In this document: positions 1 to 18,114 of the stretch, one piece after another
Layout: every line of letters begins with the position of its first letter
Numbering within the stretch: the stretch's first letter is position 1
IMG/VR virus record: IMGVR_UViG_3300042691_045824
Coordinates: 1-21,490 of that record
Strand: one strand, 5' to 3'
DNA from: a virus
Length of the DNA: 21,490 nucleotides
The notes under the pieces: model-generated
Told to the model about the DNA's origin: nothing
What the model saw: only the letters and a program-made list of their open reading frames with translations
The model's database searches: none
Translations under genes and position numbers: made by a program

Positions 1-1051
1 TATCGTTATCTATATTAAATTTTATTTTTAAATCTTCAATTAAATTCTCACTTGGTTTTTTAATTTCCATTAAAACATCAGTTCTGCCTTTTCTTTTAAT
101 AGCTTCATCAATTTTATCAAGTTCATTAGTTGTTATAATAAATATAACATCATTTGGTGTATATATACCATCTAAAATATTTAAAATGCAAGAAAGTGAA
201 ATTTTAACATCAGAATCTTTCTTTTCTTCCTTTCTATTGATATCATCCAATAAACAATCAATATCTTCAAATAAAACTATTGATTTTTTAGGTCTATCTG
301 AGATTAATGCAATAAGATTAGCATCTGTCATATCTTTTGATAAATTAATTGCCATTATATCTCTTTTAGTATAATTGGATATACCTAAAGATAAAGATGA
401 TTTACCTGTTCCGGGAGGTCCATAAAATAGATATGTTCTTTTATATCTAATTCCATAATTTTCATATTTTTCTTTTGAAGAATTAAATCTATCTAAATCA
501 TTTTTAAGAAATTCTGATACATTATTATCAAGATAAATATTATCAAATGTCTTATTTATAACCTTACCTGCACATCTAATTTCACCATTAAAATTATAAA
601 AATACTTTATATATTTATTACCATAGTTATTATCAACATAATCCATTAATTCTTTCAAAATAGACTTATTTCTACAAAAAATCATAAACATATGTTTATT
701 GTTCTTGTATGGTGTCATACTGTTTTGAATATTTTCGGCATTCTTTAATACTAAGAATCTATTTCCTTTAAATTTAAAATAAATAAATCCTGAGTTATAA
801 AACATATTAACATCAAAGCTATCTGAACTTATAAAATTATCATATAATGTTCTATAATAAAGATTTTTAATAGACTCTTGTTTTTCAGATAAAACAAAGT
901 TTTGAAATGAATAAAAGAAAAAAGAACTTTCTTCAATTTTCATCGAACAGATAATTCTATCTCTTAATGTTGTTAAAACAAAAAGAAAGAATTGTTTGAA
1001 GTAAACTAATGTACCTCCAAGAATAAGTGTAAGTAATACTGTTTTATCCAT
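1..1051 (-). CDS. BCS1-like AAA ATPase, 3' end off the window
   Basis: The frame is open from an ATG at 1051 to the left edge (about 350 residues seen), so the C-terminus is missing. Residues 4-28 form one hydrophobic segment, probably a membrane anchor. A domain of about 170 residues follows, then a AAA module: Walker A GPPGTGKS (211-218), Walker B IVLFEDID (257-264), sensor-1 TTNE (307-310) and an arginine-finger region KRKGRTD (319-325). This order, an N-terminal TM, a middle domain, then AAA with an FEDID Walker B, is that of BCS1 proteins, which move folded proteins across a membrane in mitochondria. Prokaryotic and phage relatives have no settled role. The ATG overlaps the stop of the SbcD-SbcC fusion by 8 bases, so translation is probably coupled. 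The AAA assignment is firm; the BCS1 subfamily is likely; the function is unknown. Confidence 0.85.
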   Translation of the reverse strand, partial: MDKTVLLTLILGGTLVYFKQFFLFVLTTLRDRIICSMKIEESSFFFYSFQNFVLSEKQESIKNLYYRTLYDNFISSDSFDVNMFYNSGFIYFKFKGNRFLVLKNAENIQNSMTPYKNNKHMFMIFCRNKSILKELMDYVDNNYGNKYIKYFYNFNGEIRCAGKVINKTFDNIYLDNNVSEFLKNDLDRFNSSKEKYENYGIRYKRTYLFYGPPGTGKSSLSLGISNYTKRDIMAINLSKDMTDANLIALISDRPKKSIVLFEDIDCLLDDINRKEEKKDSDVKISLSCILNILDGIYTPNDVIFIITTNELDKIDEAIKRKGRTDVLMEIKKPSENLIEDLKIKFNIDND

Positions 1052-1142
1052 TTATTTTAAAAAAATCAGGTAAATATCCAAGTTTTGTAATTATTTCTTC
1101 TTCGTTAAATCTAATATTAATTTTTGTATCGGGATGAACACA
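1044..1142 (-). other. N-terminal fragment of a split intein (32 aa)
   Basis: The last 32 codons of the SbcD-SbcC gene begin CVHPDTKINI, matching intein block A: a nucleophilic Cys at position 1, then D-T and alternating hydrophobic residues. The fragment sits directly after the Walker A lysine, a common intein insertion point in ATPases. It ends in TAA with no block B, endonuclease or C-terminal HN. Atypically split inteins with N-parts of about 25-40 residues are known from viral metagenomes (for example the TerL type), so this length is credible. The C-part should lie past the left edge and end in (H)N followed by Ser or Thr. The alternative is a decayed intein remnant. Confidence 0.75.
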
Positions 1143-2390
1143 TTTCCCAACTTGATTCTCTCCATAGATTTGAATGATTCCATTCTTATCTGTTAAATCA
1201 AGTTCATATCTTTCTCCATGTGATTTAAAATTATCTAATACAATCCTTTTAACTTTCCAATCATAAAATTGATTCTCTACATCCTTTTCAATTAATGATG
1301 ATATCTCATTATCAAGTGATAAAACATCTTTAATAAAGTCTTCTTGATAGTTCTTGGCTTTCAAAAAGTTTATAAATTCTTGTCTTACACTATCATCATT
1401 ATTTAAATCAATCGTTTCATCAAATTCTTTAATCTTTAAAGATTTATTTAAAATCTTTGATTTATCAAATTTAATGGTGGCGAATTCGCCATATTTAGAT
1501 TCTAAATGTTTCTTGATTCTTTGCTTATTTTCATTGGTGAATGTTGAGTATTGGTCCATCCAATGAATTTTAATATGATTATATTTACCAACATTTTTAA
1601 GTTCAATGTTTAGGTTTTCATAATCAAAATCTTCATTGATATATATATTAAAATATTTATAATCAGAGATTATTTCTTTCTTTTCAAAAGTTTTTGCTTC
1701 AATATCCCAAAGAAGATAACCGTGAAAAGCATTATCACCTTCGCCATAATTGGTACAATATAATGACGATGGGTAAGCAAAAAACTCTTTTCCATTTTTT
1801 TGATATGATTGTTGGAGATGTATATCTCCTGCCATCACAATATCACCTTTAAAATCAGCAAGAGAAACAAGATTACTATCGGTATGGAGTTGTCCATTTT
1901 GAAGATAGCATCCATTGATTGGGTCATGGAAAAGGTCAATATAGCACTTAGAATTATCACACTCTTCTTGATTGAATTCAAGCCAAGGGGATTTTCTATC
2001 AGGGTGATACCAAACAGCGAAAACAATATTATCAAGTGTAAAAAAACCTGTTGAATCATAGTAGTGTATATTAGGATTGTTAATAATCTCAACAAGCATC
2101 TTAATAGATGACATTCTATTGAGATTTGATTTCATTATATCATGATTACCATCAATAATCACAACAGGTGCAATCATAGCGCATGAGTTTAAGAAATCAC
2201 CTGCAAGAACATTAATTTCATTAAAAGGTTTTACATAATTGTGGAAAAGGTCACCTGCAATTACAATCAAATCGGGTTTATCCGATGTAAGAGATTCAAT
2301 TGTCAAACTTGAAATGTGCTTTTGCTCCCCTAACCTATCCAAGTTATTTTGAAAATGGATATCGGCAAGATGGGCGATTTTTGTAATCAT
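1044..2390 (-). CDS. sbcD: SbcD/gp47 nuclease fused to the SbcC/gp46 N-terminus, ending in an N-intein
   Basis: This 448-aa protein starts as an Mre11/SbcD (T4 gp47) nuclease. Metal-site motifs are DIH (10-12), GDLFH (46-50), GNHD (81-84), LFHD (153-156) and GDIH (188-191), with the family-typical YPSSL (206-210). After about residue 375 the chain becomes the N-terminus of a Rad50/SbcC (gp46) ATPase: strand-rich sequence including FKSHGERYELDL, then Walker A GENQVGK at 410-416. The Ser/Thr expected after the lysine is replaced by Cys417 and 32 intein-like residues, then TAA. In T4, gp46 and gp47 are separate proteins that process DNA ends for recombination-dependent replication. Here they seem joined, then broken at the P-loop, so the rest of the ATPase must be supplied by another gene. 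It starts 18 bases after gmd. I am confident of the nuclease and the ATPase start; the trans-splicing reading is inference. Confidence 0.9.
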   Translation of the reverse strand: MITKIAHLADIHFQNNLDRLGEQKHISSLTIESLTSDKPDLIVIAGDLFHNYVKPFNEINVLAGDFLNSCAMIAPVVIIDGNHDIMKSNLNRMSSIKMLVEIINNPNIHYYDSTGFFTLDNIVFAVWYHPDRKSPWLEFNQEECDNSKCYIDLFHDPINGCYLQNGQLHTDSNLVSLADFKGDIVMAGDIHLQQSYQKNGKEFFAYPSSLYCTNYGEGDNAFHGYLLWDIEAKTFEKKEIISDYKYFNIYINEDFDYENLNIELKNVGKYNHIKIHWMDQYSTFTNENKQRIKKHLESKYGEFATIKFDKSKILNKSLKIKEFDETIDLNNDDSVRQEFINFLKAKNYQEDFIKDVLSLDNEISSLIEKDVENQFYDWKVKRIVLDNFKSHGERYELDLTDKNGIIQIYGENQVGKCVHPDTKINIRFNEEEIITKLGYLPDFFKING

Positions 2391-2408: not shown

Positions 2409-3377
2409 TTATCCATAAAATTTCACCCAATACTCAATCATTTCATCAAGCATAGATTCAAAAGTATATTTATGAGTCCAACCTAATTTTTTTACAAGCT
2501 TACTTGGGTCTCCTTTTAGATTATTTAATTCTTCAGGTCTTAAATGTTTTTGGTCCTGCATTACATAATTTTTATAATCTAACCCAAGTTTTGAAAAAAC
2601 ATACTCACAAAGTTCTCTAACAGAATGAGATATACCTGTAGCGCAAACATAATCATCAGGTGTTTCAGATTGAAGCATTAACCACATTGCATACACATAA
2701 TCTTTAGCATGACCCCAATCTCTAGTTGCTTCTAAATTACCTAAATAAAGTTTATCTTGTAACCCAAATTTAATTCTAACTGCTGCTTTTACAACTTTGT
2801 TTGTTACAAAATTAGTACCCCTTCTTGGTGATTCATGATTAAAAAGAATACCATTCCAAATTTTAATTCCATATGAATTTCTATAATTTCTAGTAATATT
2901 ATATGAAAAAACTTTAGCACATCCATATGGTGACACAGGATTCATAGGTGTTGTTTCTCTTTGAAAACCATCTTTATCAATTGAATTACCAAACATTTCA
3001 GATGAAGATGCTTGATATATTTTAATATCAGGATTTATATTTCTTACAGATTCTAAAAGATTTAATGTACCTAAACCTGTTACATTTGCTGTATAAATTG
3101 GTTGGTCAAAACTAATCCTAACATGCGATTGCGCTGCTAAATTATATATTTCATCGGGTTTAACTTTATTAATAACAAAAATTAAAGAAGAAATATCTGT
3201 CATATCTGCATAATGAAGAATTAATCTTTCATATACACTATCTAATCTTGCGGTTTGATTTTCCGAAACTGAATTTCTTTTTAAAGTACCGTGTACTTCA
3301 TAACCCTTTTCTAATAAAAGTTCAGCTAAATATGAACCATCCTGCCCATTTATACCTGTAATAAGTGCTTTTTTCAT
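2409..3377 (-). CDS. gmd: GDP-mannose 4,6-dehydratase
   Basis: This 322-aa extended SDR converts GDP-D-mannose to GDP-4-keto-6-deoxymannose, the entry step to GDP-fucose, GDP-colitose, GDP-rhamnose and GDP-perosamine. Visible motifs are the Gmd-specific NADP loop GINGQDG (8-14), KRNS (33-36), LAAQSHV (80-86), the catalytic SSSE stretch (124-127), YGCAK (151-155) and NHESPRRG soon after. It is a little shorter than most Gmd proteins (about 345-370 aa), mainly at the C-terminus. It is the last gene of the island in transcription order and starts 3 bases after the stop of the FkbM gene. Its likely downstream partners are the Fcl-like gene (6637-7563) and the ColD-like gene (12064-13233). No manB or manC is in view, so GDP-mannose probably comes from the host. 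Confidence 0.95.
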   Translation of the reverse strand: MKKALITGINGQDGSYLAELLLEKGYEVHGTLKRNSVSENQTARLDSVYERLILHYADMTDISSLIFVINKVKPDEIYNLAAQSHVRISFDQPIYTANVTGLGTLNLLESVRNINPDIKIYQASSSEMFGNSIDKDGFQRETTPMNPVSPYGCAKVFSYNITRNYRNSYGIKIWNGILFNHESPRRGTNFVTNKVVKAAVRIKFGLQDKLYLGNLEATRDWGHAKDYVYAMWLMLQSETPDDYVCATGISHSVRELCEYVFSKLGLDYKNYVMQDQKHLRPEELNNLKGDPSKLVKKLGWTHKYTFESMLDEMIEYWVKFYG

Positions 3378-3380
3378 ATT

Positions 3381-4076
3381 TTAAAATTTAATATACCAAT
3401 CATCTTGTCCTGAAATTTCAGACAAGACATTTTTATAACCATTATTTGTAAGTAAATCGTATATTTTATGTTTAGTGTTTGTTGTATTATTTTTTGACCA
3501 ATTATGTTCAATTGTTATTATTTTTATATTATAAAGATTAAAATCAAAATTTTTTATAATTTCAAATTCACTTCCTTCTGTATCTATTGATAGATAATCA
3601 ATATTTTTTGGTGAATCAAATTTTAATAATAAATCTTTTAATGAAATCGTATTTACTTCATATTTTACATTGGTTGTTTTTTGACGTAAATCATTAAAAT
3701 CATCATTCGGATTTATAAAATCAATATTAGAAAGTGTTTTAAATGAATCAACTTCATTGAAAAGCATTTTTTCATTTGAATTACTCCAAACAGCATCAAT
3801 ATTTATATTACATTTCCTATTTTCAAATAAATCTTTATGCCAAAACTTGCAAGGTTCACTTAATATACCTTTCCAATTAAAATTTTTTTCTAGTGTTAAT
3901 GTATTACTTAATTCAATACCATCACAAGCACCGAATTCAACAAAAAAACCATTTTTTTTCATATCTAAAACAAATAAAACAAATAAATCTTGTTTTATCT
4001 GAGAATGAGATAAATCTAAATTTTTTATAAAAAAATTTTCAAAATTTTCTAGTGTTATCTCTTCAAGTTTTTTCAT
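3381..4076 (-). CDS. FkbM-family methyltransferase
   Basis: This SAM-dependent methyltransferase (231 aa from the chosen start) is of the FkbM type, which usually O-methylates sugars or polyketides. The SAM-binding strand-loop reads VEFGACDGIELSNT (46-59), followed by an acidic strand end LSEPC (72-76) and the family hallmark YLSIDTEGSEFEII (161-174). A start 13 codons upstream is possible, but the ATG at 4076 overlaps the previous TGA as ATGA, the coupling used repeatedly here, so I prefer it. It lies between another methyltransferase and gmd, so its substrate is probably a sugar of the island's glycan. It is very AT-rich. The family is secure; the methylated position is unknown. Confidence 0.85.
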   Translation of the reverse strand: MKKLEEITLENFENFFIKNLDLSHSQIKQDLFVLFVLDMKKNGFFVEFGACDGIELSNTLTLEKNFNWKGILSEPCKFWHKDLFENRKCNINIDAVWSNSNEKMLFNEVDSFKTLSNIDFINPNDDFNDLRQKTTNVKYEVNTISLKDLLLKFDSPKNIDYLSIDTEGSEFEIIKNFDFNLYNIKIITIEHNWSKNNTTNTKHKIYDLLTNNGYKNVLSEISGQDDWYIKF

Positions 4077-4744
4077 ATTTTTTTTAGTAAAAAAATACCA
4101 ATACCATTCCACCAAGTTTTACCAATAACATTTTCGGGTAAAAATATTTTATCAATTAAATTATCTGTTGTAAAAATTTCTTTTTTCCATATAATTTCTA
4201 ATTTTAATTCTTTAATTGAATCAATTGTTGCAGTTCTAGGTTCATTCCAATTCCAATCATCTATTATATAAATAAAAATATCATCTAAACAATTATAAAA
4301 ATGTTTTAATGAATTATTATGTGCATTATATGAGTGGTCACCATCATATAGGAACATATTGAATTTACCAATATCTAAAGCATCAATTTTAAAACAATCT
4401 AAATTAATAAAATTAAATAAATTCTCCCCTTTATATTTTTCTACATTATAATTTAATTCATCTATTGAATTACCATAGCTATGAATTTCAGAAAAATCAT
4501 CCACACCTAAAACAGTAGCTTTGTTTTTATACATTGCGGAACAAACTGAACTTCCACCACCTGTACCAATTTCAAGATATCTAGAATCTTCATAAGATAA
4601 TAAATTATTATAAAAATGTCTAGTTTTTTCACCTGTCATAGCTGTGTTACTAAATATAACATAATCATCTAATTTAGATATATTTTTTTCAGCTAAATCT
4701 ATACTTTTTTCTAAATGAAAAATGATTTTTTTTATTTTATCCAT
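4073..4744 (-). CDS. Class I SAM-dependent methyltransferase
   Basis: The 223-aa protein has a Rossmann-type SAM site, YLEIGTGGGSS (56-66), with the acidic ribose-binding end of strand 2 in VLGVDDFS (78-85). It also has YDGDHSY (133-139), typical of the Methyltransf_24/cephalosporin-hydroxylase-like group often found in O-antigen and capsule clusters. No membrane segment or signal peptide is visible. It ends in TGA overlapping the next ATG and begins 5 bases after the neighbouring glycosyltransferase stop. A role in modifying a sugar or glycan terminus follows from context only. The stretch 4261-4320 has only 6 G/C in 60 bases, an extreme of this window. Confidence 0.8.
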   Translation of the reverse strand: MDKIKKIIFHLEKSIDLAEKNISKLDDYVIFSNTAMTGEKTRHFYNNLLSYEDSRYLEIGTGGGSSVCSAMYKNKATVLGVDDFSEIHSYGNSIDELNYNVEKYKGENLFNFINLDCFKIDALDIGKFNMFLYDGDHSYNAHNNSLKHFYNCLDDIFIYIIDDWNWNEPRTATIDSIKELKLEIIWKKEIFTTDNLIDKIFLPENVIGKTWWNGIGIFLLKKI

Positions 4745-4749
4745 TTTTT

Positions 4750-5682
4750 TTAAAAATGATTTCTATACGAATTCCAAAACTTATTGACTTCATTTGGTAA
4801 ATATTTTTCAAAATTTTCTAAATTATTTATTAAATTTAAAGAATCTTTATAACCAATAATTTCATCTTTTAGATTATTAACTAAATTATGAATATTTCTT
4901 TCTTGATAAACAGTTGCTTTATTATAAATAACTGAATTTGGAAAATAATATTGTAATACATATGCACCCCAAATATCATCCATTCTACCAAGATAAGGAA
5001 AAACAACATAAAATGGTATTACATCTCTATGTAAAAATGTATTTTGTGAATTGAATGGTGCGATTTGATTACTACAAAAAGGTTTAAAATCTTTAAATTT
5101 AACAATTGGTTTATGTGTTAATCTGCAAATTGCATCTATATCAGGGTCACCATCCCAAAAATCTGCTTGAACTAATACTTTCCTACTTATTTTACCTTTA
5201 TATTCAATATTATTTTTTTGTGGTACATATTCAATTGGATATCCTCTATGCCATAAAATATTATGTTCTGTAGGTGATATTGGGTCAAAAACATTATTAG
5301 ATTTATTATCATAACAATCTACTTCTATAGTTTGTCCAACAAAAATTTCATCACCCCAATTGTCATATGGTATATTATCATCATCTGTTGTACATAAGAT
5401 ATCACATCCATTATCATAAGCATAAAGAAACCCAATATTTCTTCTTTGACATTTATTCCAACCTATAGCCTCACTTAATTCAGGATATAATTCTTCTTGT
5501 CTTTCAGGTGTTAAATAAGTAAAATTTTTATATTTATTTTCTAAATTTATATATGATGAATGTGGTGTTTTTAAATCACCTATAAAAATTAATTGCCAAT
5601 CTTTTTTTTCAGAAATTTGAGCATATTTAATTGTCGCAACAGATGGTTCATTAATAGATGTTAATATTAAAAATTTTTTCAT
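4750..5682 (-). CDS. STELLO/DUF288-like GT-A glycosyltransferase
   Basis: The 310-aa protein begins with an N-terminal strand ending TSINEPS, then LIFIGDLKTP (31-40) and the acidic metal/nucleotide motif CTTDDDNIPYDNW (97-109). These resemble the STELLO/DUF288 group and, more distantly, reversibly glycosylated polypeptides (GT75), all GT-A enzymes using nucleotide sugars. TTDDDN would bind the metal and nucleotide-sugar diphosphate. A later GRMDDIWGAY patch (about 232-241) may hold a catalytic acid. There is no signal peptide, so it is probably cytoplasmic. Its ATG overlaps the TGA of the upstream epimerase gene (ATGA). Donor and acceptor cannot be read from the sequence. GT-A fold is likely; the exact family is less sure. 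Confidence 0.7.
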   Translation of the reverse strand: MKKFLILTSINEPSVATIKYAQISEKKDWQLIFIGDLKTPHSSYINLENKYKNFTYLTPERQEELYPELSEAIGWNKCQRRNIGFLYAYDNGCDILCTTDDDNIPYDNWGDEIFVGQTIEVDCYDNKSNNVFDPISPTEHNILWHRGYPIEYVPQKNNIEYKGKISRKVLVQADFWDGDPDIDAICRLTHKPIVKFKDFKPFCSNQIAPFNSQNTFLHRDVIPFYVVFPYLGRMDDIWGAYVLQYYFPNSVIYNKATVYQERNIHNLVNNLKDEIIGYKDSLNLINNLENFEKYLPNEVNKFWNSYRNHF

Positions 5683-6653
5683 AATCTATTTTTTATATCA
5701 TAAAATACGTTTTTTATACCATCTTTTAAAGATGTTTTAGCTTCCCAATTTAATATTTTTTTAGCTTCTTTACAGTCACACCATTGACCCCAAATTAATG
5801 TTTCTTTAGATGTATCATAAAATGGTTCAATATTTTTATCAGAAATTTCAATAATTATTTTAGATATTTCAGATATAGATACTCTTTCTTCTTTACCAAC
5901 ATTTAATGGACCTACTAAATCTAAATCATTCATCTTGTTTATCATTAATTCAATACATTCTAATGCATCATCAATATAACAATATGAACGTGTTTCTTGA
6001 CCTGTACCCATTATTTTAAAATCAATTTCAGGGTGTTTTAATGCTCTATGACAAAATACAGGTATAACAGAACCTGTTTCCAAATCAAAATCTTGGTTAG
6101 GACCATAAATACCTATAAATCTTGCAATTGCAGCTTTTAAATTTTTATTTTCTTTTATTGCATATTCTATTGATAACTCACCAATTAATTTAGCCCACCC
6201 ATAAGATAAACTTGGTTCAGAAGGGTATGCTTGCGATTCTTTTATTAAAGGTGAATCCTTATCATCTTGTAATGATTTATTATATACATGTGCGCTTGAT
6301 GCATAAAAATATCTTGTAATATTATTTTCAATAACTGCTTTCAGTACATTACTATCAATTTTTATATTTGAAGACATTACTTCATACGGTTTTGAAATAT
6401 AAGTTCCAATGCCACCGACTTTAGATGCTAGATGAATAATACAATCTTGATTTTTAAATAAATCATTAAAAGAGTCATAATCTCTTAAATCAAGATTATA
6501 AAATTTTATGTTTTTGGGTAAATATTCTAATTTACCTCTTTCTAAATTATCAATAACTGTTATATTATAACCTTTTGCTAATAAATATTTTGCAAGATTA
6601 GAGCCAATAAAACCTGCACCGCCTGTAATTAATATATTATTGAGTCTGTTCAT
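5679..6653 (-). CDS. NAD-dependent sugar epimerase, GDP-mannose 3,5-epimerase-like
   Basis: The extended SDR (324 aa) has a dinucleotide loop GGAGFIG (11-17), LASKVGGIG (75-83), SSAHVY (119-124) and the catalytic YGWAK (151-155). The SKVGGIG and (S)EPSLSYG context resembles GDP-mannose 3,5-epimerase (GME) and related WcaG-like enzymes. The Cys that GME has in SSACIY is His121-Val here, so GME activity cannot be assumed. A start 10 codons upstream (6683) exists, but 6653 puts the first strand at residue 7 as in the family and cuts the overlap with the preceding gene from 47 to 17 bases. It ends in TGA coupled to the next ATG. Its sugar substrate is unproven. Confidence 0.8.
   Translation of the reverse strand: MNRLNNILITGGAGFIGSNLAKYLLAKGYNITVIDNLERGKLEYLPKNIKFYNLDLRDYDSFNDLFKNQDCIIHLASKVGGIGTYISKPYEVMSSNIKIDSNVLKAVIENNITRYFYASSAHVYNKSLQDDKDSPLIKESQAYPSEPSLSYGWAKLIGELSIEYAIKENKNLKAAIARFIGIYGPNQDFDLETGSVIPVFCHRALKHPEIDFKIMGTGQETRSYCYIDDALECIELMINKMNDLDLVGPLNVGKEERVSISEISKIIIEISDKNIEPFYDTSKETLIWGQWCDCKEAKKILNWEAKTSLKDGIKNVFYDIKNRL
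6611..6632. repeat. 22-bp exact repeat, copy 1 (copy 2 at 8470-8491)
   Basis: These 22 bases are identical to 8470-8491. Both copies encode the LITGGAG nucleotide-binding loop near the starts of two different SDR genes. Outside the repeat the genes diverge, and the third such gene (around 7520-7545) does not share it. Shared ancestry, a local conversion tract or coding constraint could each explain it. Confidence 0.6.
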
Positions 6654-7563
6654 ACCAATTAATAGTTTTTTGCAATCCATCAACTAAATTTGTATTTGGT
6701 ACATATCCAAAATATTTTTTAAATTTAGACATATCATAAAAACGTCTTGGTTGACCATTTGGTTTAGATGAATCCCATACTATTTTACCATTAAACCCTA
6801 TTAATTCGGCTATAGTTTCAACTAATTCTTTAATTGATGTTTCCTTTCCTGTACCTAAATTAAATGGACCACATTCATCAATATGTATTGCATCAATAAT
6901 TGCATTTACCGTATCATCAACATATAAAAATTCTCTTGAAGAAGTACCATCTCCCCATACAATAATTTCATTTTTATTTTCATTTCTAGCTTCAATAAAT
7001 TTTCTAATTAATGCAGGTACAACATGAGAAGTTTCCAAATTAAAATTATCATGAGGACCATATAAATTAGCAGGTAATAAAACAGTAGAGTTGAAATTAA
7101 ATTGTGTTTTATATGTCCAAGATTGTATGATTAGATTTTTTTTAGCCATTGAGTAACCAATTGAATTTTCATCAGGTAAGTCTTTCCAAAAATCTTCTTC
7201 GGTATATGGTACAGGCAAATATTTTGGATAACCACAACCTGCTGCTAATGAAACCAACTTTTCTACATTATTTAAGTAAGAATAATGAGTTACTAATGTA
7301 CCCATCATTATATTATCATAAAAAAAATCTCCGGGTTTTTCTTTGTTAGCACCTATACCACCAACTTTACCTGCTAAATGTAATACAATATTAGGTTTAT
7401 ATGATTCAAATAATTTTTTTACATCATCTTCTTTTCTTAAATCATATTCATTTTTTTTGGGTGCATAATAAGTTAAACCCCTTTTTTGTAATTCCAAAAT
7501 AAGATTTGTTCCAACAAATCCCATTCCACCTGTTATTAAAATTTTTTTATTATTTAATTTCAT
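6637..7563 (-). CDS. fcl: GDP-L-fucose synthase-like (Fcl/WcaG or ColC) epimerase/reductase
   Basis: The 308-aa SDR fits the family that epimerises and reduces GDP-4-keto-6-deoxymannose (Fcl) or its 3-deoxy form (ColC). Visible are the NADP loop GGMGFVG (12-18), LAGKVGGIGANKEKP (63-77), Cys110, the Y137-x3-K141 pair (YSMAK), and NLYGPHDNF (167-175) leading to His180. These align with E. coli Fcl Cys109, Tyr136, Lys140 and His179. The Ser107 equivalent is Ala108 (AAGCGYP instead of SSCIYP), a change in the catalytic triad. It begins one base after the previous stop (TAATATG). With gmd and a ColD-like gene in the same island, the product may be GDP-fucose or GDP-colitose; sequence alone does not decide. 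Confidence 0.87.
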   Translation of the reverse strand: MKLNNKKILITGGMGFVGTNLILELQKRGLTYYAPKKNEYDLRKEDDVKKLFESYKPNIVLHLAGKVGGIGANKEKPGDFFYDNIMMGTLVTHYSYLNNVEKLVSLAAGCGYPKYLPVPYTEEDFWKDLPDENSIGYSMAKKNLIIQSWTYKTQFNFNSTVLLPANLYGPHDNFNLETSHVVPALIRKFIEARNENKNEIIVWGDGTSSREFLYVDDTVNAIIDAIHIDECGPFNLGTGKETSIKELVETIAELIGFNGKIVWDSSKPNGQPRRFYDMSKFKKYFGYVPNTNLVDGLQKTINWYEQTQ

Positions 7564-7564
7564 A

Positions 7565-8506
7565 TTATAAATTTGTGAAATTTTTGTTATTATAATTATT
7601 TATTAGTTTGTATGATTTTATTAATTCTTCAATTCCATTATCTAAACTATAATTTGCTTTCCAACCTTTAGATTCTAGTTTTGCATTTGAAACCATATAA
7701 TTTCTTTGGTCAAAATCTTGTTTAAAATCATTTTTAACAATTACTAAATCAGGTACAAATTTTTTAATTTTTTCTGCTAATTCTAATTTAGTACAATTTG
7801 CTTTACTTAATCCTACATTAAATGCATTATTATTACATTTATCATAATTTTCAATCATAAAAAGAAAAGTATTAGCAATATCTCTAATATGTATATAATT
7901 ACGAATAAAATGTGATTCAAATAAAACTAAATAACCATCAGTTACGGCTTTATATGTAAAATCATTAACTAACAAATCAGTACGCATTCTATAAGAACTA
8001 CCAAATACAGTTGCTAATCTTAATGCTATACCATTTCCTAAATCTAATACGGCTTTTTCAGCATCACATTTTGTTTGTGCGTAAAGGGAGATTGGATTAA
8101 ATGGACTATCTTCAGTTATTAATTCAGTAGAAGAACCATATTGACTATTAGTGTTTGGTATCAATAATATTTGATTTTTAGTCACCCATTTTGTTATGTT
8201 TTTAACTTGTTCATAATTAACTTGAATTGCTAATTCAGGATTCTTTTTACAAGAAGGCATGCCAACTATAGCAGCTAATGGAATAATGATATCATGTTTT
8301 TCAACTAATACTTTTAAATCATTTTCATTTCTTACATCACCTAAAATAAAGTTAAAATTTTTATTATGTGTGAATGTTATTAATGAAATTTGTTTATAAG
8401 ACAAATTATCAAGTACTGTAACTTGATATCCATTATTTAATAAAACTTCGGTTAAAACAGACCCTAAATAACCTGCACCGCCTGTAATTAAAACTTTTTT
8501 CATCAT
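7565..8506 (-). CDS. NAD-dependent epimerase/dehydratase (extended SDR)
   Basis: The 313-aa protein has GGAGYLG (9-15), an acidic residue ending strand 2 (VLDN, 31-34), PLAAIVG (76-82), TNSQYGSS (119-126) and the catalytic YAQTK (142-146). A later RNYIHIRDIA segment matches the R-x-(Y/F)-(I/V)-H-(V/I)-x-D signature of nucleotide-sugar epimerases and dehydratases. It probably acts on a nucleotide sugar in the cytoplasm; the substrate is not identifiable. The ATG at 8506 overlaps the TGA of the kinase gene (ATGATGA), so the second Met at 8503 is a less likely start. Its glycine-loop DNA shares a 22-base identity with the GME-like gene. Confidence 0.85.
   Translation of the reverse strand: MMKKVLITGGAGYLGSVLTEVLLNNGYQVTVLDNLSYKQISLITFTHNKNFNFILGDVRNENDLKVLVEKHDIIIPLAAIVGMPSCKKNPELAIQVNYEQVKNITKWVTKNQILLIPNTNSQYGSSTELITEDSPFNPISLYAQTKCDAEKAVLDLGNGIALRLATVFGSSYRMRTDLLVNDFTYKAVTDGYLVLFESHFIRNYIHIRDIANTFLFMIENYDKCNNNAFNVGLSKANCTKLELAEKIKKFVPDLVIVKNDFKQDFDQRNYMVSNAKLESKGWKANYSLDNGIEELIKSYKLINNYNNKNFTNL
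8470..8491. repeat. 22-bp exact repeat, copy 2 (copy 1 at 6611-6632)
   Basis: It is identical to 6611-6632 and encodes the glycine-rich loop of the SDR at 7565-8506. The flanking base differs on each side, so the match is exactly 22 bases. Confidence 0.6.
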
Positions 8507-9249
8507 ATTAATTCTAAATTAACTTTACTTGTACCTCTTTTTTGAATAACTTGAGTTGCACATTTATTAGCAAATATAATTGATTTTTTTATATTATTAC
8601 TTTTTAAATAATCAAAAACTAAAGATGCTATAAATGTATCACCTGCTCCACAAGTATCTTTTACATCAACTTTTGGAACAGGAAAAATTTCATCTTTATA
8701 TTTGCAACCATTACCACCTAAAGTAATTATTAAAATATTATTTAATTCAGCATCAATTTCATTTTTTGTAATATCATATTCATAATTATTAATTTTAATA
8801 AAATGTGCCTTTTTTGCATAATTTCCTAATATTTTTTTTGTATCTAAAAAAACTTTATTATGATTTGTGCATATATATTCTATATCTTCTTTTGAAAGAT
8901 AGCCTTTATCATAATCGGATATTATGATAGCATCATAATTATCCCAAACAATCTCTTCATAAGATATTTTACCATATGATGAATCATTGGTATCGACTCT
9001 TAAAAACATTTGATTAGTTTTATCATCTATAAACCTTTTTTTAGTGATTTCTTTCCAATTTTTATTAGTTGCTATGTCGCATTCTATATTTAAAGATTTT
9101 AAATTTTCATAAACATTCATAGCCATCCCTCCGACTTCTATTTTTTTAATAGGTTGTAAAACAGGTACAGGTGCTTCAGGTGCTAATCTGTTTACAGAAC
9201 CATAACAATAGACATCGTTACAAGATTCTCCAATAACCAATATCTTCAT
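8503..9249 (-). CDS. PfkB-family sugar kinase, HldE domain I (HldA/RfaE)-like
   Basis: The 248-aa ribokinase-fold protein resembles the kinase half of HldE, which phosphorylates D-glycero-D-manno-heptose 7-phosphate. Supporting motifs are RLAPEAPVPV (21-30, as in NRxSPEAPVPV of HldE), the substrate loop EVGGMAMNV (38-46), SDYDKGYLS (111-119) and the catalytic/anion-hole motif DTCGAGD (198-204). It is about 60 residues shorter than HldA and has no nucleotidyltransferase domain. I chose the ATG at 9249, one base after the previous stop (TAATATG). The longer frame to 9318 adds 23 residues with no family match. No gmhA, gmhB or hldD partner is visible, so the sugar may not be heptose or the host may complete the route. 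Confidence 0.85.
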   Translation of the reverse strand: MKILVIGESCNDVYCYGSVNRLAPEAPVPVLQPIKKIEVGGMAMNVYENLKSLNIECDIATNKNWKEITKKRFIDDKTNQMFLRVDTNDSSYGKISYEEIVWDNYDAIIISDYDKGYLSKEDIEYICTNHNKVFLDTKKILGNYAKKAHFIKINNYEYDITKNEIDAELNNILIITLGGNGCKYKDEIFPVPKVDVKDTCGAGDTFIASLVFDYLKSNNIKKSIIFANKCATQVIQKRGTSKVNLELI

Positions 9250-9250
9250 A

Positions 9251-9652
9251 TTACCAACTAATTTCCCAATCTTTGAATTCTGCTGCCAAACAATCAATTT
9301 TATAATCTTTACGACCACCTATCGATTCTTGTATTTTATTTTTTGCTGTATTTCTAATTCCATTCAAACCATGAGTCAATTCTAGATTATTACCATCTTT
9401 TATACCTTTACGATAATTTGATTCGTTATGCCAAATATGTAGGTTCATTTGTGATAAAACAACTACTGCTCTAATAATTTCTGAATTTAATTTTACATCA
9501 TTATTATCAATAATAACTTGAATATCGTGCAAGATATCTTTTATTTCTTCTGAATAAGAATCTTTATGTTGTGATATAAAGACTTCTTTTAATTGAACAA
9601 TTGATAACCTATCAATTAATTCGCTAAATGTTGGTAAATATTTCCTTTCCAT
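9251..9652 (-). CDS. Small helical protein of unknown function, island-associated
   Basis: This 133-aa protein has no signal peptide or membrane segment and looks almost wholly helical. The N-terminus PTFSELIDRLSIVQLKE and a later QMNLHIWHNE are its most distinctive parts. I recall similar proteins in phage and marine bacterial glycan regions, but no assigned function. The start at 9652 is preferred: the frame runs 24 codons further upstream, but that stretch overlaps the coding sequence before it and lacks family-like sequence. The resulting overlap is 29 bases. Its E-L-I-D-R-L-S-I motif is echoed by the small protein at 13983-14333. A scaffold or regulatory role for the glycan enzymes would be a guess. 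Confidence 0.65.
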   Translation of the reverse strand: MERKYLPTFSELIDRLSIVQLKEVFISQHKDSYSEEIKDILHDIQVIIDNNDVKLNSEIIRAVVVLSQMNLHIWHNESNYRKGIKDGNNLELTHGLNGIRNTAKNKIQESIGGRKDYKIDCLAAEFKDWEISW

Positions 9653-10532
9653 ATTTTTGTATATAATCTTTGTAAAAGTTTTTAATGTTGTATAAGTTTT
9701 CAACTTTATTATAAGCACTTTCAATCATTGTTTCATATTTTTCATAATTTCCTAAAATATCATCAACTATATCTTTGAAATTATCATCATCAAAATATAT
9801 AAAATCAACATTTGGTATTAAAAAATCTTCAATAATGTTAAAGCTATCTTTTCTACATAATAATAAAGTACGACATCTAGCAGCTTCAATAATTCTTGAT
9901 TTATGTTGTGTAATAGATGGCCCACCATTGCTGCTACCAATTTTTATAAAATCTTCGTGTGTATAGCCTAAACCATCATTAAATGAGTCAATATCAACTT
10001 GTGGTAATGAATTGTGTACAATTGCGATTTTTGATTTTGAAATGAAATTAAGTTTTTCTTGAAAGGAAACATCAGAAATATTTGTATACATACCACCAAG
10101 TCTATTAATTACAATATAATTATAATTAATAATTTGACTTGGTACAAAATAGTTTGAAAAACTGCCTGTATAAATTAAATCATAAATTTTATCATTTTTT
10201 GTTGTCCAAGTAGATGGAGATGGATAGTAGCAATATTCGTATAATTCTCTTTTTAAAATTTCATTTCTTATTTTAACTGTATATGGACATATTGTAAATA
10301 TTTTATCATATTTATTTTCATAAATATTTAAATACTCATGTCTAACATGTCTTACAGTAAAACCATTTGGTAATTCAAAATCTAAACAAAAATACAATTT
10401 ATCTTTTTCTTTAATAAAATCTCTACAATCGATATGAAGTTCAATATTATCAGTATCTGTAGTATTAATACTTTCAAAATTTAAAAAATTTATTGGGTCT
10501 TCGCCAAATATTATAGGTAATTTTACTTTCAT
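9624..10532 (-). CDS. GT-B glycosyltransferase, group 1_2 (CgeB-like)
   Basis: The 302-aa protein has a C-terminal half typical of Glyco_trans_1_2/CgeB-like transferases: HKSRIIEAARCRTLLL (210-225), then FNIIEDFLIPNVDFIYFDD (231-249), the nucleotide-sugar-binding region where a conserved E would contact the donor ribose. The N-terminal half (DLIYTGSFSNYFVP, 118-131) fits the linker to the second Rossmann domain. No membrane segment is seen. Its ATG overlaps the TGA of the preceding gene (ATGA) and its end overlaps the next gene by 29 bases. Donor and acceptor are unknown. Confidence 0.78.
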   Translation of the reverse strand: MKVKLPIIFGEDPINFLNFESINTTDTDNIELHIDCRDFIKEKDKLYFCLDFELPNGFTVRHVRHEYLNIYENKYDKIFTICPYTVKIRNEILKRELYEYCYYPSPSTWTTKNDKIYDLIYTGSFSNYFVPSQIINYNYIVINRLGGMYTNISDVSFQEKLNFISKSKIAIVHNSLPQVDIDSFNDGLGYTHEDFIKIGSSNGGPSITQHKSRIIEAARCRTLLLCRKDSFNIIEDFLIPNVDFIYFDDDNFKDIVDDILGNYEKYETMIESAYNKVENLYNIKNFYKDYIQKYGKEIFTNI

Positions 10533-11287
10533 ATTTTATCTAAATAAAGGTAGTTATTTTTGTCATAATTTGCTAATAAACTAAATGTAGACACATTACT
10601 ATTGCAAATCATTTTAAATTTTGTTTTTGATAAACAAAAAGAATCATTAAATACTTCTTCTGCTAATTTTATTCTATTAAAAGGTAAATTATTATGAAAA
10701 TGTATTGCTGTATTTGAATTACTTCTAAAACATTCATTATATGTTAATTTGTCTTGAAAATGATTTTTAAAATCATTTAAACTGTATTCATCATCAGTTA
10801 TCAAAAATATTTTATCGTATGAATTTTTAATAAATTCTTTTTCAATAGTTTTTATAATTTCTTCATTTGATAAAATTCTAACAACATCCGAATGGTCTGT
10901 TTTTCTATGTTGTACACCTAAAATATTTTCATTTTCTGAAAATGGTAGTTTAATATTTTTAATATAATTACTTTCTAATAATTTTATTTCTTTAATAACT
11001 TCACTACCTCTTAATAGTTTTTCATGTGTGTTATTAAATTCAAAATAAATTCCATATGGGCAATTTCCCATATTTAATTCTTTATTATATATTTCAAAAT
11101 TTTTATTGCAATCAAAAAAATAATCAAATAAATTTAGTTCTGTTGTTGTATAAAAATAGCTTTTCCAATTTACATTAAAATTATCTGTTTTATTATCAGA
11201 TAAATAAATTATTGATGGTAAAATACCATGAACTAAATCAGAAAAAAATCCTGCGTATCTATTATGACAATTTATTTTGTAATTCAT
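10529..11287 (-). CDS. Fucosyltransferase-like protein (GT23/GT11 superfamily)
   Basis: The 252-aa protein carries GVQHRKTDH (124-132), resembling the V-H-x-R-x-x-D motif I of alpha-1,2/alpha-1,6 fucosyltransferases, which binds GDP-fucose. It also has KIFLITDDEYSL (159-170), like the (F/I)-x-x-T-D-D segment of NodZ/FUT8, and a C-terminal CNSNVSTFSLLA (228-239), where these families have a conserved S/N-rich motif. The start at 11287 is preferred; the longer frame to 11374 lies inside the upstream gene. Its stop is TGA in an ATGA overlap. The match is by motif order only, so a different GT-B enzyme is possible. Its presence fits the GDP-deoxyhexose enzymes nearby. Confidence 0.6.
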   Translation of the reverse strand: MNYKINCHNRYAGFFSDLVHGILPSIIYLSDNKTDNFNVNWKSYFYTTTELNLFDYFFDCNKNFEIYNKELNMGNCPYGIYFEFNNTHEKLLRGSEVIKEIKLLESNYIKNIKLPFSENENILGVQHRKTDHSDVVRILSNEEIIKTIEKEFIKNSYDKIFLITDDEYSLNDFKNHFQDKLTYNECFRSNSNTAIHFHNNLPFNRIKLAEEVFNDSFCLSKTKFKMICNSNVSTFSLLANYDKNNYLYLDKI

Positions 11288-12080
11288 TAGAAATAATTTC
11301 AAATAAAATATTTTTATCTGTGCTATTTGACCAAATTTGTTTTGCTTTTGACCTGCAATACCATTTACCTTCATGTTCTCTAACTGTAAATGAGATATAA
11401 GTTTTATTTGGGTTCATTAGATTTTCTTTTGTATGGGTATAACATACAGGTCCTGATGCTCTTCCAATTATTATATCACAAAACGTAGATAAGTAACCAA
11501 TTAACAATAAATCAGGTAATTTTTTAGTATATTCACCAATAAAAATAACATTTTCCTTGAAAATATTTATTGGTGTTGTTACGATAAATAAAAATTCAGG
11601 ATATTTATCTGATATATCATTTATTAATGTATAAAAATCAATATTATCTGATTGTCCTGAATTTACTTGACCATTACATATTAAAACTAATTTTCTATTA
11701 TTTAATATAGATAGTAAATTATGTATTTTTTCCTTTCCGCTTAAATTATCATAAAAAATTTCAGGTAAAAAATCTTCTTCGGGAATATTTTTTATACCAT
11801 ATGTTTCTAGAATTTTTTCAGCTAGATTTTTATGCGCAGCAAAAGAGCAACCATTTTCATCAAGCGCACCATTTTGTCCTAACCATGTATTTATTGAATT
11901 ATTTGGTATCTGTAATCTAGAAAATTCATTACAATTTTCAATATCTTCTAATATACCAAAATTCAAATTATGATAAAAATTAACCGTAAACCCATTTTTT
12001 ACTAATAGATTTATTAGTGTTCTAGAATAAAAAATATCACCGTAATGATATATATTATATAAATTAATATGGTTGAGCAT
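11262..12080 (-). CDS. GT-B glycosyltransferase, heptosyltransferase (GT9)-like
   Basis: The 272-aa protein begins with HYGDIFYSRTLINLLVKNG (12-30), equivalent to the G-D-x-x-x-x-(T/S)-x-x-(L/I) acceptor loop of GT9 heptosyltransferases. Its second half has strand-loop units KLVLICNGQVNSGQSDN (130-146), FLFIVTTP (163-170) and CDIIIGRASGPV (201-212), the last resembling the D-x-x-I-G-x-x-(S/T)-G-(P/x) donor site. It is shorter than typical GT9 (about 320-350 aa) and diverged, so the donor need not be a heptose. It overlaps the ColD-like gene by 17 bases and the next gene by 26. Confidence 0.6.
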   Translation of the reverse strand: MLNHINLYNIYHYGDIFYSRTLINLLVKNGFTVNFYHNLNFGILEDIENCNEFSRLQIPNNSINTWLGQNGALDENGCSFAAHKNLAEKILETYGIKNIPEEDFLPEIFYDNLSGKEKIHNLLSILNNRKLVLICNGQVNSGQSDNIDFYTLINDISDKYPEFLFIVTTPINIFKENVIFIGEYTKKLPDLLLIGYLSTFCDIIIGRASGPVCYTHTKENLMNPNKTYISFTVREHEGKWYCRSKAKQIWSNSTDKNILFEIISNELQNKLS

Positions 12081-13233
12081 ATTTATTAATGATTTTACAG
12101 ATAAATTTAATTTCTGATTTTTTCATATCGGGATTATTTGGTAAATATAAGCCATTTTCATGTATTATTTTAGCATTTGGTATATCAAATTTACCATATT
12201 TTTCATACCAAAAAGGCTGCTCATTTATAGACCCACATATTAAAGGTCTACATTCAATGTTATTTTTTTGTAACTCTTGAACTAATTCATTAATATTTTT
12301 TACAATTAATGGATATGAAAAATTAGACACAAAACTATTTTTAGGTTCTTTAATTTTCCAAAGTGAATCTTTTAATAAAGAATTATAAATTCTAAAATTA
12401 TTTTCCCTTTTTTCTACTATATTATCAATTTTTTTCAATTGATTTAAACCAATAAATGCTTGTAAATCTGTTGACCTTAAATTAAAACCGGGATAATAAA
12501 AAGTATATAATGCTCTAAAATTACTAACATTATATTTTTTTCTAAAATTTTCTTTTTCTATTTCCGGTAAATCCCTATCCCAACCATGACTTCTTATAGA
12601 TAACAATAATAAATATAAATCATAATCATTTGTTGATACCATTCCACCCTCTATTGTTGACATATGATGACCAAAATAAAAAGAGAATGATGACATAGAA
12701 CCTATTGTACCTAATTTTTTATCATTGTACTTACTACCAATTGCTTCACATGTATCTTCTAAAATAATAATATTATTTTCTTCACACAATTTAACAATTT
12801 CATCCATGCTATTTGATATACCCAATACATGAACTAAAATTAGAGAAGATGGGTTATGTTCTACTATTAGTTTTTTTAAATGTTCAACATCTAGCCCTAA
12901 ATTATCTTTATCACAATCACACATAATTGGTTGAAGACCAAACTGCATTGCAGGTGTGACTGTTGTAACCCAAGAAACGGCAGGTACTATGATTTTATTA
13001 TTTTTTAATCTATTTGATAGAATAAGTGAATAAATCATTGCTAAATTTGCTGATGAACCTGAATTTAAAAAAACTGAATACTTAACACCTAGCCATTCAG
13101 ACCATTTTTTTTCAAAATCAACTGTTAAATCGCCCTTTGTTAATTTTGGATTTGTCTTTAACCACTTGATTAAATTTTTTATATCATTTTTATCAACAGT
13201 ATCTTTAACTAAAGGTATTTTTTTGTGTATCAT
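12064..13233 (-). CDS. colD: ColD-like GDP-4-keto-6-deoxymannose 3-dehydratase (PLP, His for Lys)
   Basis: The 389-aa DegT/DnrJ/EryC1-fold protein lacks the Schiff-base lysine of aminotransferases. The site reads FSFYFGHHMSTIEGG (183-197), with His189-His190 where aminotransferases have Lys. This is the hallmark of ColD (388 aa, catalytic His188), which uses PLP and glutamate to remove the 3-hydroxyl of GDP-4-keto-6-deoxymannose. Other ColD-like features are LEDTCEA (158-164, Asp to the PLP ring), SHGWDRDLP, PGFNLRSTDLQA and NIECRPLICG. RfbH also has His but is longer and carries an Fe-S Cys cluster not seen here. With gmd in the island, a route to GDP-colitose or a related 3,6-dideoxyhexose is likely. 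It overlaps both neighbours (29 and 17 bases). Confidence 0.88.
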   Translation of the reverse strand: MIHKKIPLVKDTVDKNDIKNLIKWLKTNPKLTKGDLTVDFEKKWSEWLGVKYSVFLNSGSSANLAMIYSLILSNRLKNNKIIVPAVSWVTTVTPAMQFGLQPIMCDCDKDNLGLDVEHLKKLIVEHNPSSLILVHVLGISNSMDEIVKLCEENNIIILEDTCEAIGSKYNDKKLGTIGSMSSFSFYFGHHMSTIEGGMVSTNDYDLYLLLLSIRSHGWDRDLPEIEKENFRKKYNVSNFRALYTFYYPGFNLRSTDLQAFIGLNQLKKIDNIVEKRENNFRIYNSLLKDSLWKIKEPKNSFVSNFSYPLIVKNINELVQELQKNNIECRPLICGSINEQPFWYEKYGKFDIPNAKIIHENGLYLPNNPDMKKSEIKFICKIINKYAQPY

Positions 13234-13990
13234 AATATGTTAAATTTAATAATTCTTTATAATTTGAGTAAGGAATTTCTGAGAAGTAATTTTTTCTTGA
13301 GTTTTTTAAATTATTATTTTCATCAAATGAAATATAATCGTTTATATTTAAATTATTTAATATAAATAAATCTTCTACAAAAGATTTAATATTTATTAAT
13401 TCACCACTACCAATTAATAAATCTTTATTTGTTTTTATTGATTCATTAGCAAGTACTGATGGATGTATAATATCTCTTAAAAAAGAGATATTTCCAATAA
13501 TATTTTTGTTTTTATTAATAATAGAATCAAATATTTTGCTAAATAAAAAACCGTTTTTTCTATGTGGTGAATTAAAATTAAATGGATAGATTATATGAAC
13601 ATTTTTATATTTTTCTTTATTTTCATTTATGTGTATTGATAATAATTCTTTAGATTTTATATATGGTGTATAATTATATTTAAATGGCATTTTTAAAGAA
13701 ACTTTACCTTCATAATCATTCCACAATTCTGAAGTACTATAAATTATTATTTTTTCACAATAATCTTTTATATTGTTTATAACCTTTAAAGTATAATTAA
13801 AATTTACATCAATAAAAAATTTTTCATTTTCATTTAAAAATGTTCTTTGTTCCGCAAATAATAAAAATATTGTATGGTATTTTTTTTCTTTAATAACAGA
13901 ATAATTTATATCTCTTGATGAGATTCTATCATATTCTTTTGGAAAAAAATAATTTAGTTGGGCTGTGTTACCAATTATTAAATTATTCAT
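13205..13990 (-). CDS. Divergent SDR (NAD-dependent epimerase/reductase-like)
   Basis: The 261-aa protein keeps the order of an extended SDR: a first strand NNLIIGNTAQL (2-12) in place of a canonical GxxGxxG loop, the IIIYSTSELW strand (81-90) with the Ser/Thr site, Y110-x3-K114, FLRDIIHPSV (170-179) and a C-terminal GSGELINIKSF. The glycine loop is degenerate and the first part shortened, so cofactor binding may be altered. It overlaps the ColD-like gene by 29 bases. A reductase step after ColD (a ColC-type role) is possible but could equally belong to the Fcl-like gene. SDR descent is likely; the activity is unknown. Confidence 0.65.
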   Translation of the reverse strand: MNNLIIGNTAQLNYFFPKEYDRISSRDINYSVIKEKKYHTIFLLFAEQRTFLNENEKFFIDVNFNYTLKVINNIKDYCEKIIIYSTSELWNDYEGKVSLKMPFKYNYTPYIKSKELLSIHINENKEKYKNVHIIYPFNFNSPHRKNGFLFSKIFDSIINKNKNIIGNISFLRDIIHPSVLANESIKTNKDLLIGSGELINIKSFVEDLFILNNLNINDYISFDENNNLKNSRKNYFSEIPYSNYKELLNLTYYDTQKNTFS

Positions 13991-14333
13991 TAATACCTTT
14001 ATATTTTTTAACAGAATCTTCTATTAGAGATTTATTATTTACGATAGCACCATCAATCATTCTGTTTATAGCTTGTACATATTTTGGTCTTTTTTGTTTA
14101 AAACAAATGTCTACTTTTCTTTTTAAATCAGCAAGTTCAGAATCGCTTTTTGAATCCTGCATTGCATCTTCTAAATACCACATTCTACAATGTAGAATTG
14201 CTAATTTTTCAATGACTTCTCCAATATTATCTGTTTCAATAATATCATTTGGTAATTCAACATTTTTATTAAAATTTAAAATTTCGTGAACTTTATTTTT
14301 AATAATTTCTTCTATTTTTTCTCCTATTTCCAT
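13983..14333 (-). CDS. Small helical protein, DUF4254-like
   Basis: The 116-aa protein is predicted helical and charged. IEKLAILHCRMWYLED followed by a second helix SELADLKRKVDICFKQKRPKYV and NRMID resembles DUF4254 proteins, found in LPS and polysaccharide clusters without known function. That family name is from memory. I prefer the ATG at 14333, 4 bases after the previous TAA, over one 12 bases upstream that overlaps the previous gene. It overlaps the SDR gene by 8 bases. Its E-V-I-E-K-L-A-I string parallels E-L-I-D-R-L-S-I in the protein at 9251-9652. Confidence 0.65.
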   Translation of the reverse strand: MEIGEKIEEIIKNKVHEILNFNKNVELPNDIIETDNIGEVIEKLAILHCRMWYLEDAMQDSKSDSELADLKRKVDICFKQKRPKYVQAINRMIDGAIVNNKSLIEDSVKKYKGINE

Positions 14334-14337
14334 ATTT

Positions 14338-15135
14338 TTATACATTTTTTATAAAATCATCAACAAAATTATAATTTATAATATTAGCACCAATAAAATT
14401 AGTTGCAATTCCATGATATAATGGGTGGTCATTTCTATTTTGAAAACCAACATCTAAAACATGATGCGTTTTTTTACAACTTAGAACTGATATCATTGTA
14501 CCACCGCTTAATGGTCCGATTACACCAACACAATTATCATGAGATAAGTATGTATTAGCTTCAGATAGTGTTAATTCCTTTTTGTTATATTTTTTACCAA
14601 TTGATTCCGAGTTTTTACCATAAACAAAAAAATCAAATCCTAAACTATTAATTTTTTCTATAATTCTAATATAATCATCATGTGAAATATTTCTATAATT
14701 ACACCAAGGTCTTTCACGATAATGAATCATAAAAAATGGCTTACTTAAATTTTCTGTAATTACTTCTTTTTTCGTATCTAAAATTTTTTCAATAAGTTTA
14801 GTGTTTGACATATCAACAGGATACATATGATTTTCTATCATATAATCATGTTCTGATAATGAAGTTACTATTTCAATATCAGAGTGATTCAAGTTAATAA
14901 AATCTTCATATGAAATAACATTTTTAAAAATACTTTGATACATAAACATTCTATCTTTCAATGTTACTACAGTTGTATCTTCATTTGATATTTCATTATT
15001 TAGAAGTTTTTGAATTATTGCAACTCTGCTGACACCAATTTCCCAACCTAATTCCCAATATTTTTCTAATGAATCTGTATCTTTTTCTTTGGTTGCCGTA
15101 AAGTTTTCCGATTTTCCTACAATATAATATTTCAT
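14338..15135 (-). CDS. Probable GT-B glycosyltransferase (unassigned family)
   Basis: The 265-aa protein has a second Rossmann-like half: FFMIHYRERPWCNYRN (134-149), an H-x-R motif reminiscent of GDP-fucose-binding O-fucosyltransferase-like enzymes, then FDFFVYGKNS (167-176) and CVGVIGPLSGGTMISVLSC (202-220), a glycine/serine-rich loop as in donor sites of GT9/GT-B proteins. The N-terminal 100 residues carry no motif I recognise. No signal peptide is visible. Its ATG overlaps the TGA of the GT10 gene (ATGA). Glycosyltransferase is inferred from this loop pattern and context; the family is open. Confidence 0.5.
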   Translation of the reverse strand: MKYYIVGKSENFTATKEKDTDSLEKYWELGWEIGVSRVAIIQKLLNNEISNEDTTVVTLKDRMFMYQSIFKNVISYEDFINLNHSDIEIVTSLSEHDYMIENHMYPVDMSNTKLIEKILDTKKEVITENLSKPFFMIHYRERPWCNYRNISHDDYIRIIEKINSLGFDFFVYGKNSESIGKKYNKKELTLSEANTYLSHDNCVGVIGPLSGGTMISVLSCKKTHHVLDVGFQNRNDHPLYHGIATNFIGANIINYNFVDDFIKNV

Positions 15136-15947: not shown

Positions 15948-16562
15948 TTATTTTTTTATATATAAAGCATCACCCCATGTATGACCATCCCAAGAAGTTT
16001 CAACTCTTTTAAAACCATAAGGTGCTAAAAATTCATCTAATTCTTCTACCATTGGGCAGTTTTCATAAACTTCAGCACGATTTACTTCAGAAATAATTGC
16101 ATCAATATTTTTAAGTGTTTCTTTTGCACCTTTAAAAACTTCTAATTCATAACCTTGAACATCAATATTAATAAAATTATATGTTTTTTCTTTTATTTCT
16201 TGAATTTCATCAAGCAAATCCATTTCAACAATTTCTTCATCATCAAATACAATATGAGGATATTGTTCTAAATGTAATTTTGGTTTTAAAAAAGAACAGG
16301 ATTGTCCTTGATTGTTAGATTCAACATGCATTTTCATTTCTCCTTTTTGAGAACCTAATGCTTTATTTATACAAATTGCTTCATCTTTAACTTTGTTTCT
16401 AAGAACACCAAAATTTGTTGGTAATGGTTCAAAATAAATAATATTATTTACATTTAATGATTTATAAAGATTGTGTTCTTCTCCCCAATGACCACCAATA
16501 TGTATAACACCATCAATGTTTAGGTTGTATTTTTCTTTAAGTTGTGTTAAATTTAAAAGCAT
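15948..16562 (-). CDS. FkbM-family methyltransferase
   Basis: The 204-aa SAM methyltransferase shows IHIGGHWGEE (20-29, the SAM loop with His in place of the usual Val/Asp pattern), YFEPLP (43-48, strand 2 acid) and FINIDVQGYELEVFKGA (130-146), the FkbM hallmark. It is a compact member with no extra domain and differs clearly from the FkbM protein at 3381-4076, so the two probably methylate different sites. It overlaps the GT2 gene by 10 bases. It probably O-methylates a sugar of the island's product; the site is unknown. Confidence 0.88.
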   Translation of the reverse strand: MLLNLTQLKEKYNLNIDGVIHIGGHWGEEHNLYKSLNVNNIIYFEPLPTNFGVLRNKVKDEAICINKALGSQKGEMKMHVESNNQGQSCSFLKPKLHLEQYPHIVFDDEEIVEMDLLDEIQEIKEKTYNFINIDVQGYELEVFKGAKETLKNIDAIISEVNRAEVYENCPMVEELDEFLAPYGFKRVETSWDGHTWGDALYIKK

Positions 16563-18113: not shown

Positions 18114-18114
18114 A

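Follow-up and report, generated by a model that had tools for sequence, protein, structure and literature searches.

The viral DNA fragment analyzed here, 21,490 bases long and referred to as the window (IMG/VR record IMGVR_UViG_3300042691_045824), encodes a protein in which a complete gp47 (SbcD/Mre11-like) nuclease runs into the beginning of a gp46 (SbcC/Rad50-like) ATPase and breaks off shortly after the lysine of the Walker A motif. The end of this gene (the N-half) very probably encodes the N-terminal fragment of a natural, atypically split class 1 intein, inserted in the gp47-gp46 fusion between the Walker A lysine and serine. The protein reads ...NGIIQIYGENQVGK up to the Walker A motif GENQVGK (residues 410-416) and continues with CVHPDTKINIRFNEEEIITKLGYLPDFFKING to a TAA, the first residues past the motif being CVHPDTKINIRFNEEE... 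and the stop lying 32 codons on. A first-pass annotation, made from the sequence alone, had interpreted the motif, the start of an intein block A and the stop in this way, and its coordinates and reading are correct; the next gene, which it placed within the same 8 bases, encodes a BCS1-like AAA ATPase whose ATG (1051-1049) overlaps the N-half gene by 8 bases. Since the record ends inside the AAA gene, the gene for the partner half cannot lie in the window.

Nine related contigs were retrieved, eight of which span the end of the N-half. In seven close relatives (L002-L008) the contig also carries, 4-6 kb downstream of the N-half, an open reading frame (the C-half) that starts with MTEKQIKIENL..., encodes a C-intein of ~130 residues and proceeds, directly after a terminal His-Asn, with serine (SNILNSITYGLYG) and a Rad50 body. 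The junction in these contigs reads ...VDIQVEGxGxYYANNIxVHN/SNILNS[IV]TYGLYG (slash, intein boundary), and joining the halves restores the Walker A motif as GENQVGK/SNILNSITYGLYG. A second half of this composition had been predicted in the first-pass annotation; it is present in the seven close relatives and in one distant relative, always on the contig of the N-half. In L005 the C-half occupies positions 16269-18839. When the viral collection was scanned independently for back-translated DNA patterns of the N- and C-junctions, the matches fell on the same contigs, the sole contig with the N-pattern and without the C-pattern being a 14.9-kb fragment that ends early; a scan of GTDB genomes found no relative. 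The halves are separated by a variable set of genes (the AAA ATPase and a small KTSC-like protein) and by four genes on the opposite strand, one baseplate-wedge-like and, by eye, one sigma-factor-like and two glycosyltransferase-like. A natural atypically split intein is defined by N- and C-inteins encoded in separate genes and by an N-part below about 40 residues; here the genes are separate, with opposite-strand genes between them, and the N-part has 17-32 residues and the C-part ~130.

The host protein can be recognized on both sides of the break. The N-extein matches PF00149 (2.1e-11, over the cut-off) and the SbcD model TIGR00619 (1.3e-11), phrog_35725 covers N-half residues 2-417, and the metallophosphoesterase motifs of SbcD/Mre11/gp47 nucleases (D10, H12, D47, N82-H83, H155, D189 and H191) are invariant in our alignment A3. 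Residues 1 to ~374 form the whole nuclease and gp46 contributes only the last ~40 residues ahead of the junction, so that what is interrupted is a gp47-gp46 fusion protein. The joined extein has the features of SbcC/Rad50/gp46 ATPases, namely GENQVGK/S, the zinc-hook CPSC, the signature SGSGMER and the Walker B LLLDE (alignments A1/A4), and matches phrog_77 at 2.2e-30. Using alignments of both exteins, we found ~50 other loci, some of them on duplicate contigs, at which a single long open reading frame has GxNxxGK[ST] at the junction. Two of them, L027 (GENQSGK/SNIYNAITYLLYG; longer stretch GENQSGKSNIYNAITYLLYG) and L010 (GENQQGK/TTIIDAICFILYG), are in register with the split junction; the 735-kb phage LR756501 is likewise uninterrupted (GENQQGKTTIIDAICFILYG), and in Tenacibaculum phage PTm1 the fusion is a single protein of 1,318 residues. 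These fusions (PTm1, LR756501, PHROG 35725) share the fused extein with the window at 29-38% identity, yet each is one gene without an intein, whereas the gene of the window clade is split. The uninterrupted loci indicate that the natural gene is a gp47-gp46 fusion and that the intein sits exactly between the Walker A Lys and Ser/Thr; the Lys/Thr position was called the classic P-loop insertion in a study of mycobacteriophage inteins (PMC5050341).

The C-intein is identified by sequence profile and by predicted structure. A profile of the seven C-intein sequences searched against the PDB recovered gp41-1 at 8.4e-11, all 20 matches listed being inteins or intein-like domains, and the joined intein of L002 as a single query reached gp41-1 at 2.3e-7. 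An AlphaFold2 model of the C-intein alone (predicted local distance difference test score, pLDDT, 85.5) had VidaL (6vgv) as its best Foldseek match (5.8e-6, template modeling score 0.78); the top matches were all inteins, the list consisted of inteins and related HINT domains, and VIA-align gave a Z of 15. The C-intein is thereby predicted to adopt the HINT fold typical of class 1 inteins. The sequence blocks of that class are also in place: block A follows the pattern C[VL]HPxT[KR][IV][NK]I, beginning with Cys1, in all nine records and in L036, and the seven C-inteins are invariant for the block B SxxH (S59, H62) and, in blocks F and G (DIQVEG...HN/S), for D110-G115, H127, N128 and S129. In the structural alignment, residue 1 of the C-intein model falls at about residue 13 of SspDnaB and residue 21 of the VidaL chain, which places the split after strand β2, at the site named S1 for VidaL (PMC13014065). 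With a split at this position, the HINT fold seems to require for its completion no more than about the first 12-16 N-part residues. An AlphaFold2 model of the window N-half was unusable (pLDDT 48.5, from a near-identical alignment), and phmmer matches between designed SAKe6 repeat proteins and the joined intein from L005 were discarded as a repeat artefact.

The distant relative L036, a 93-kb viral contig whose N-extein is 54% identical, has the same split arrangement, with an N-part of 17 residues (CLHPSTRVKIRYGLSER) and the C-half junction ...LYDIQVEGNPEFFVNDEIISHN/SNILNSITYGLQG. Its halves, too, enclose the four opposite-strand genes seen in the close relatives, from which the split most likely predates the divergence of L036 and the window clade and has been inherited since. 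At 17 residues, this natural N-intein is among the shortest known (VidaL, 16). The N-part of the window clade carries in addition a conserved 17-residue tail that L036 lacks; the same tail occurs in each of the eight close relatives whose contigs extend over the end of the N-half, and their N-intein has 29 residues.

Several points weigh against a functional split intein. The window's own C-half is outside the record, the pairing being seen in relatives instead. The block F histidine of gp41-1 (GNHLFYAN) is replaced by Gly or Pro in the C-inteins. In a search with intein models, as the first-pass annotation proposed, the joined intein scored at best 18.5 bits with PF14890, below the gathering cut-off of 35.8 (a threshold of detection and not a defining property of inteins); single halves gave weak matches or none to the intein models of NCBIfam and Pfam. 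Finally, that trans-splicing takes place in the cell is an inference, as are how fast it proceeds and whether activity depends on it.

A rival reading takes the N-half for a dying gene that has been truncated and the C-half for its decayed leftover. In its favor is the one extra base that the window has in a run of T close to the stop (window 1044-1070), which makes the tail of the window three residues longer and is either natural variation or a sequencing error. Both halves, however, retain open frames and the splicing residues in all relatives, and the arrangement persists down to the extein identity of L036. Both intein parts are under purifying selection, with a pooled ratio of nonsynonymous to synonymous polymorphism (pN/pS) of 0.20 in the N-intein and 0.40 in the C-intein; the N-extein has 0.12 and the C-extein 0.22. 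Within the N-intein the ratio is 0.10 for block A and about 0.3 for the rest, so that constraint on the tail is weaker than on block A but clear. The tail common to eight close relatives shows that this gene end is no product of chance, and the block A codons are strongly conserved. That annotation held that its prediction would fail if a C-half were missing or a separate SbcC gene were present; the C-half exists, and no second gp47-gp46 or SbcC was found in relatives' contigs of 170, 129 and 91 kb, whose completeness is unproven. This negative result rests on a protein search with the intact LR756501 fusion, which returned from each relative the two split halves alone, as PF13476 is blind to this divergent Rad50. 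A remnant is thus very improbable.

There is also little probability that the halves act as separate subunits without splicing, the gp47 nuclease on its own and a Rad50 body lacking its first strands. gp47 and gp46 are separate proteins in many phages and the whole phosphoesterase motif set is contained in the N-half, yet the break lies inside the Walker A motif and not at a domain boundary, the gp47 polypeptide carries the first Rad50 strands with the P-loop lysine, and the splicing residues of the C-intein are invariant. Joining at the level of RNA, through a trans-splicing intron or a programmed frameshift, has a negligible likelihood, since, although introns occur in such phage genes, an Rfam search of the window, L005 and L036 gave no match, both halves have a start and a stop of their own with opposite-strand genes in between, and what would have to be removed codes for an intein fold.

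Under the split-intein interpretation, the phage would make two polypeptides from genes 4-6 kb apart. The first would comprise the whole gp47 nuclease, the first gp46 strands and an N-intein of 17-32 residues; the second, the C-intein of ~130 residues, serine and the rest of gp46, ~727 residues with the coiled coil, zinc hook, signature and Walker B. From what is established for class 1 inteins and for Rad50 ATPases, the short N-intein would dock with the C-intein, whose HINT fold is nearly complete, and supply the missing part, and Cys1, the block B His, the C-terminal His-Asn and Ser+1 would carry out an acyl shift at Cys1, transfer to Ser+1 and cyclization of Asn, joining GENQVGK to SNILNS. 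The product, of ~1,143 residues, would have an intact P-loop and unite the full set of Mre11 and Rad50 motifs in a single chain. As the ATP site is incomplete in both polypeptides until they are spliced, the Rad50 ATPase should depend on splicing. It is conceivable, if rather unlikely, that the split serves as a regulatory switch, in which the N-half would initially act as a free Mre11-like nuclease until trans-splicing turned it into an ATP-controlled Mre11-Rad50 for recombination-dependent replication; the conserved 17-residue tail might tune such a switch.

Among known inteins, VidaL is similar in being naturally split at S1 with a very short N-part; it is about 20% identical, and the 17-residue tail is an addition of the window clade. 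gp41-1 (PDB 6qaz), the closest by sequence among the matches listed, has Cys1 and Ser+1 alike. Its N-part is long, the break being at the canonical endonuclease site, and its host is a replicative helicase. The TerL mini-inteins of Kuttervirus phages (e.g. Salmonella phage Maynard) are contiguous, at 159 residues, and weakly similar (E 0.03-0.06), the match spanning the whole joined intein in two phages; unlike the window intein, they are unsplit and reside in a terminase. AceL-TerL and GOS-TerL, natural split inteins with N-parts of 25 and 37 residues (PMC11766414), also combine a short N-part with a long C-part in an ATPase host, but they are split after helix α1, at the S2 position (PMC13014065), and have Cys+1 and a terminase host; the Cat consensus is a weaker structural match. 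The first-pass annotation was right about a short-N-part atypical split; its remark that a recombination ATPase activated by splicing would be unusual has to be qualified by Pyrococcus horikoshii RadA, a recombination ATPase with a P-loop mini-intein whose splicing is stimulated by single-stranded DNA (PMC5790916). The RadA intein differs in being contiguous, archaeal and in a RecA-family host. In the open-access literature we found no published intein, split or whole, in gp46, SbcC or Rad50. Natural atypically split inteins being known already, what is unusual here is the host protein, and the range of N-part lengths is informative. Only a small number of natural split inteins have a very short N-part, and these are prized as protein-labeling tools; for this intein, natural homologues with N-parts from 17 to 32 residues are available. 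Mre11-Rad50 joins the enzymes whose active site should arise only through protein splicing, and the locus offers a clean example of a contiguous fused gene that was split in two and has stayed so over a long divergence.

Table 1. Coordinates of the features discussed, in the numbering of the record given for each
Feature	Record	Positions	Strand	Remarks
N-half open reading frame	window	1044-2390	(-)	448 aa; gp47-gp46 start plus predicted N-intein
N-extein: SbcD/gp47 (Mre11-like) metallophosphoesterase and first SbcC/gp46 (Rad50) strands, up to Walker A Lys	window	1143-2390	(-)	PF00149, TIGR00619, phrog_35725
Predicted N-intein, 32 codons: block A CVHPDTKINIRF and 20-residue tail	window	1047-1142	(-)	tail common to relatives; C-intein partner on same contigs
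Stop codon (TAA) of N-half gene	window	1044-1046	(-)	
BCS1-like AAA ATPase, runs off window	window	2-1051	(-)	PF00004 3e-19; between halves in most relatives
Sugar island	window	2409-19068	(-)	between DnaB-like helicase and gp47
N-half	L036	5983-7290		
FkbM-like methyltransferase gene	L003	11341-11949		
Small island protein	window	13983-14345		
Small island protein	L036	5403-5750		
Small island protein	L003	6690-7034		
Small island protein	L002	7982-8233		

The surroundings of the two halves were also examined (Table 1). The AAA gene was considered as a splicing or homing partner and rejected; it is missing in L007 and L036 and thus stands outside the splicing system. In L003 an FkbM-like methyltransferase gene lies exactly between the N-half stop and the AAA gene; taken with the absence of the latter in L007, this makes the spot after the N-half look like an insertion hot spot. 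Upstream of the C-half is a protein that appears HAD-like by eye, its gene end overlapping the C-half start. Promoter-like sites between the halves are no commoner than in shuffled sequences (57 versus 51) and hence permit no statement on timing. On the other side of the N-half, a large island contains genes for nucleotide-sugar enzymes, glycosyltransferases, FkbM methyltransferase and aminotransferase, including GDP-mannose dehydratase, several epimerases, a PfkB sugar kinase and DegT; its content changes from relative to relative, against 88-92% identity on the gp47/AAA side. A Pfam search with the window copy of a small island protein (~80-120 aa, ..EKLAILHCRMWYLEDAM..KRKVDICFKQKRPKYVQAINRM..) gave no match; this protein recurs in the island, at positions that vary among relatives.
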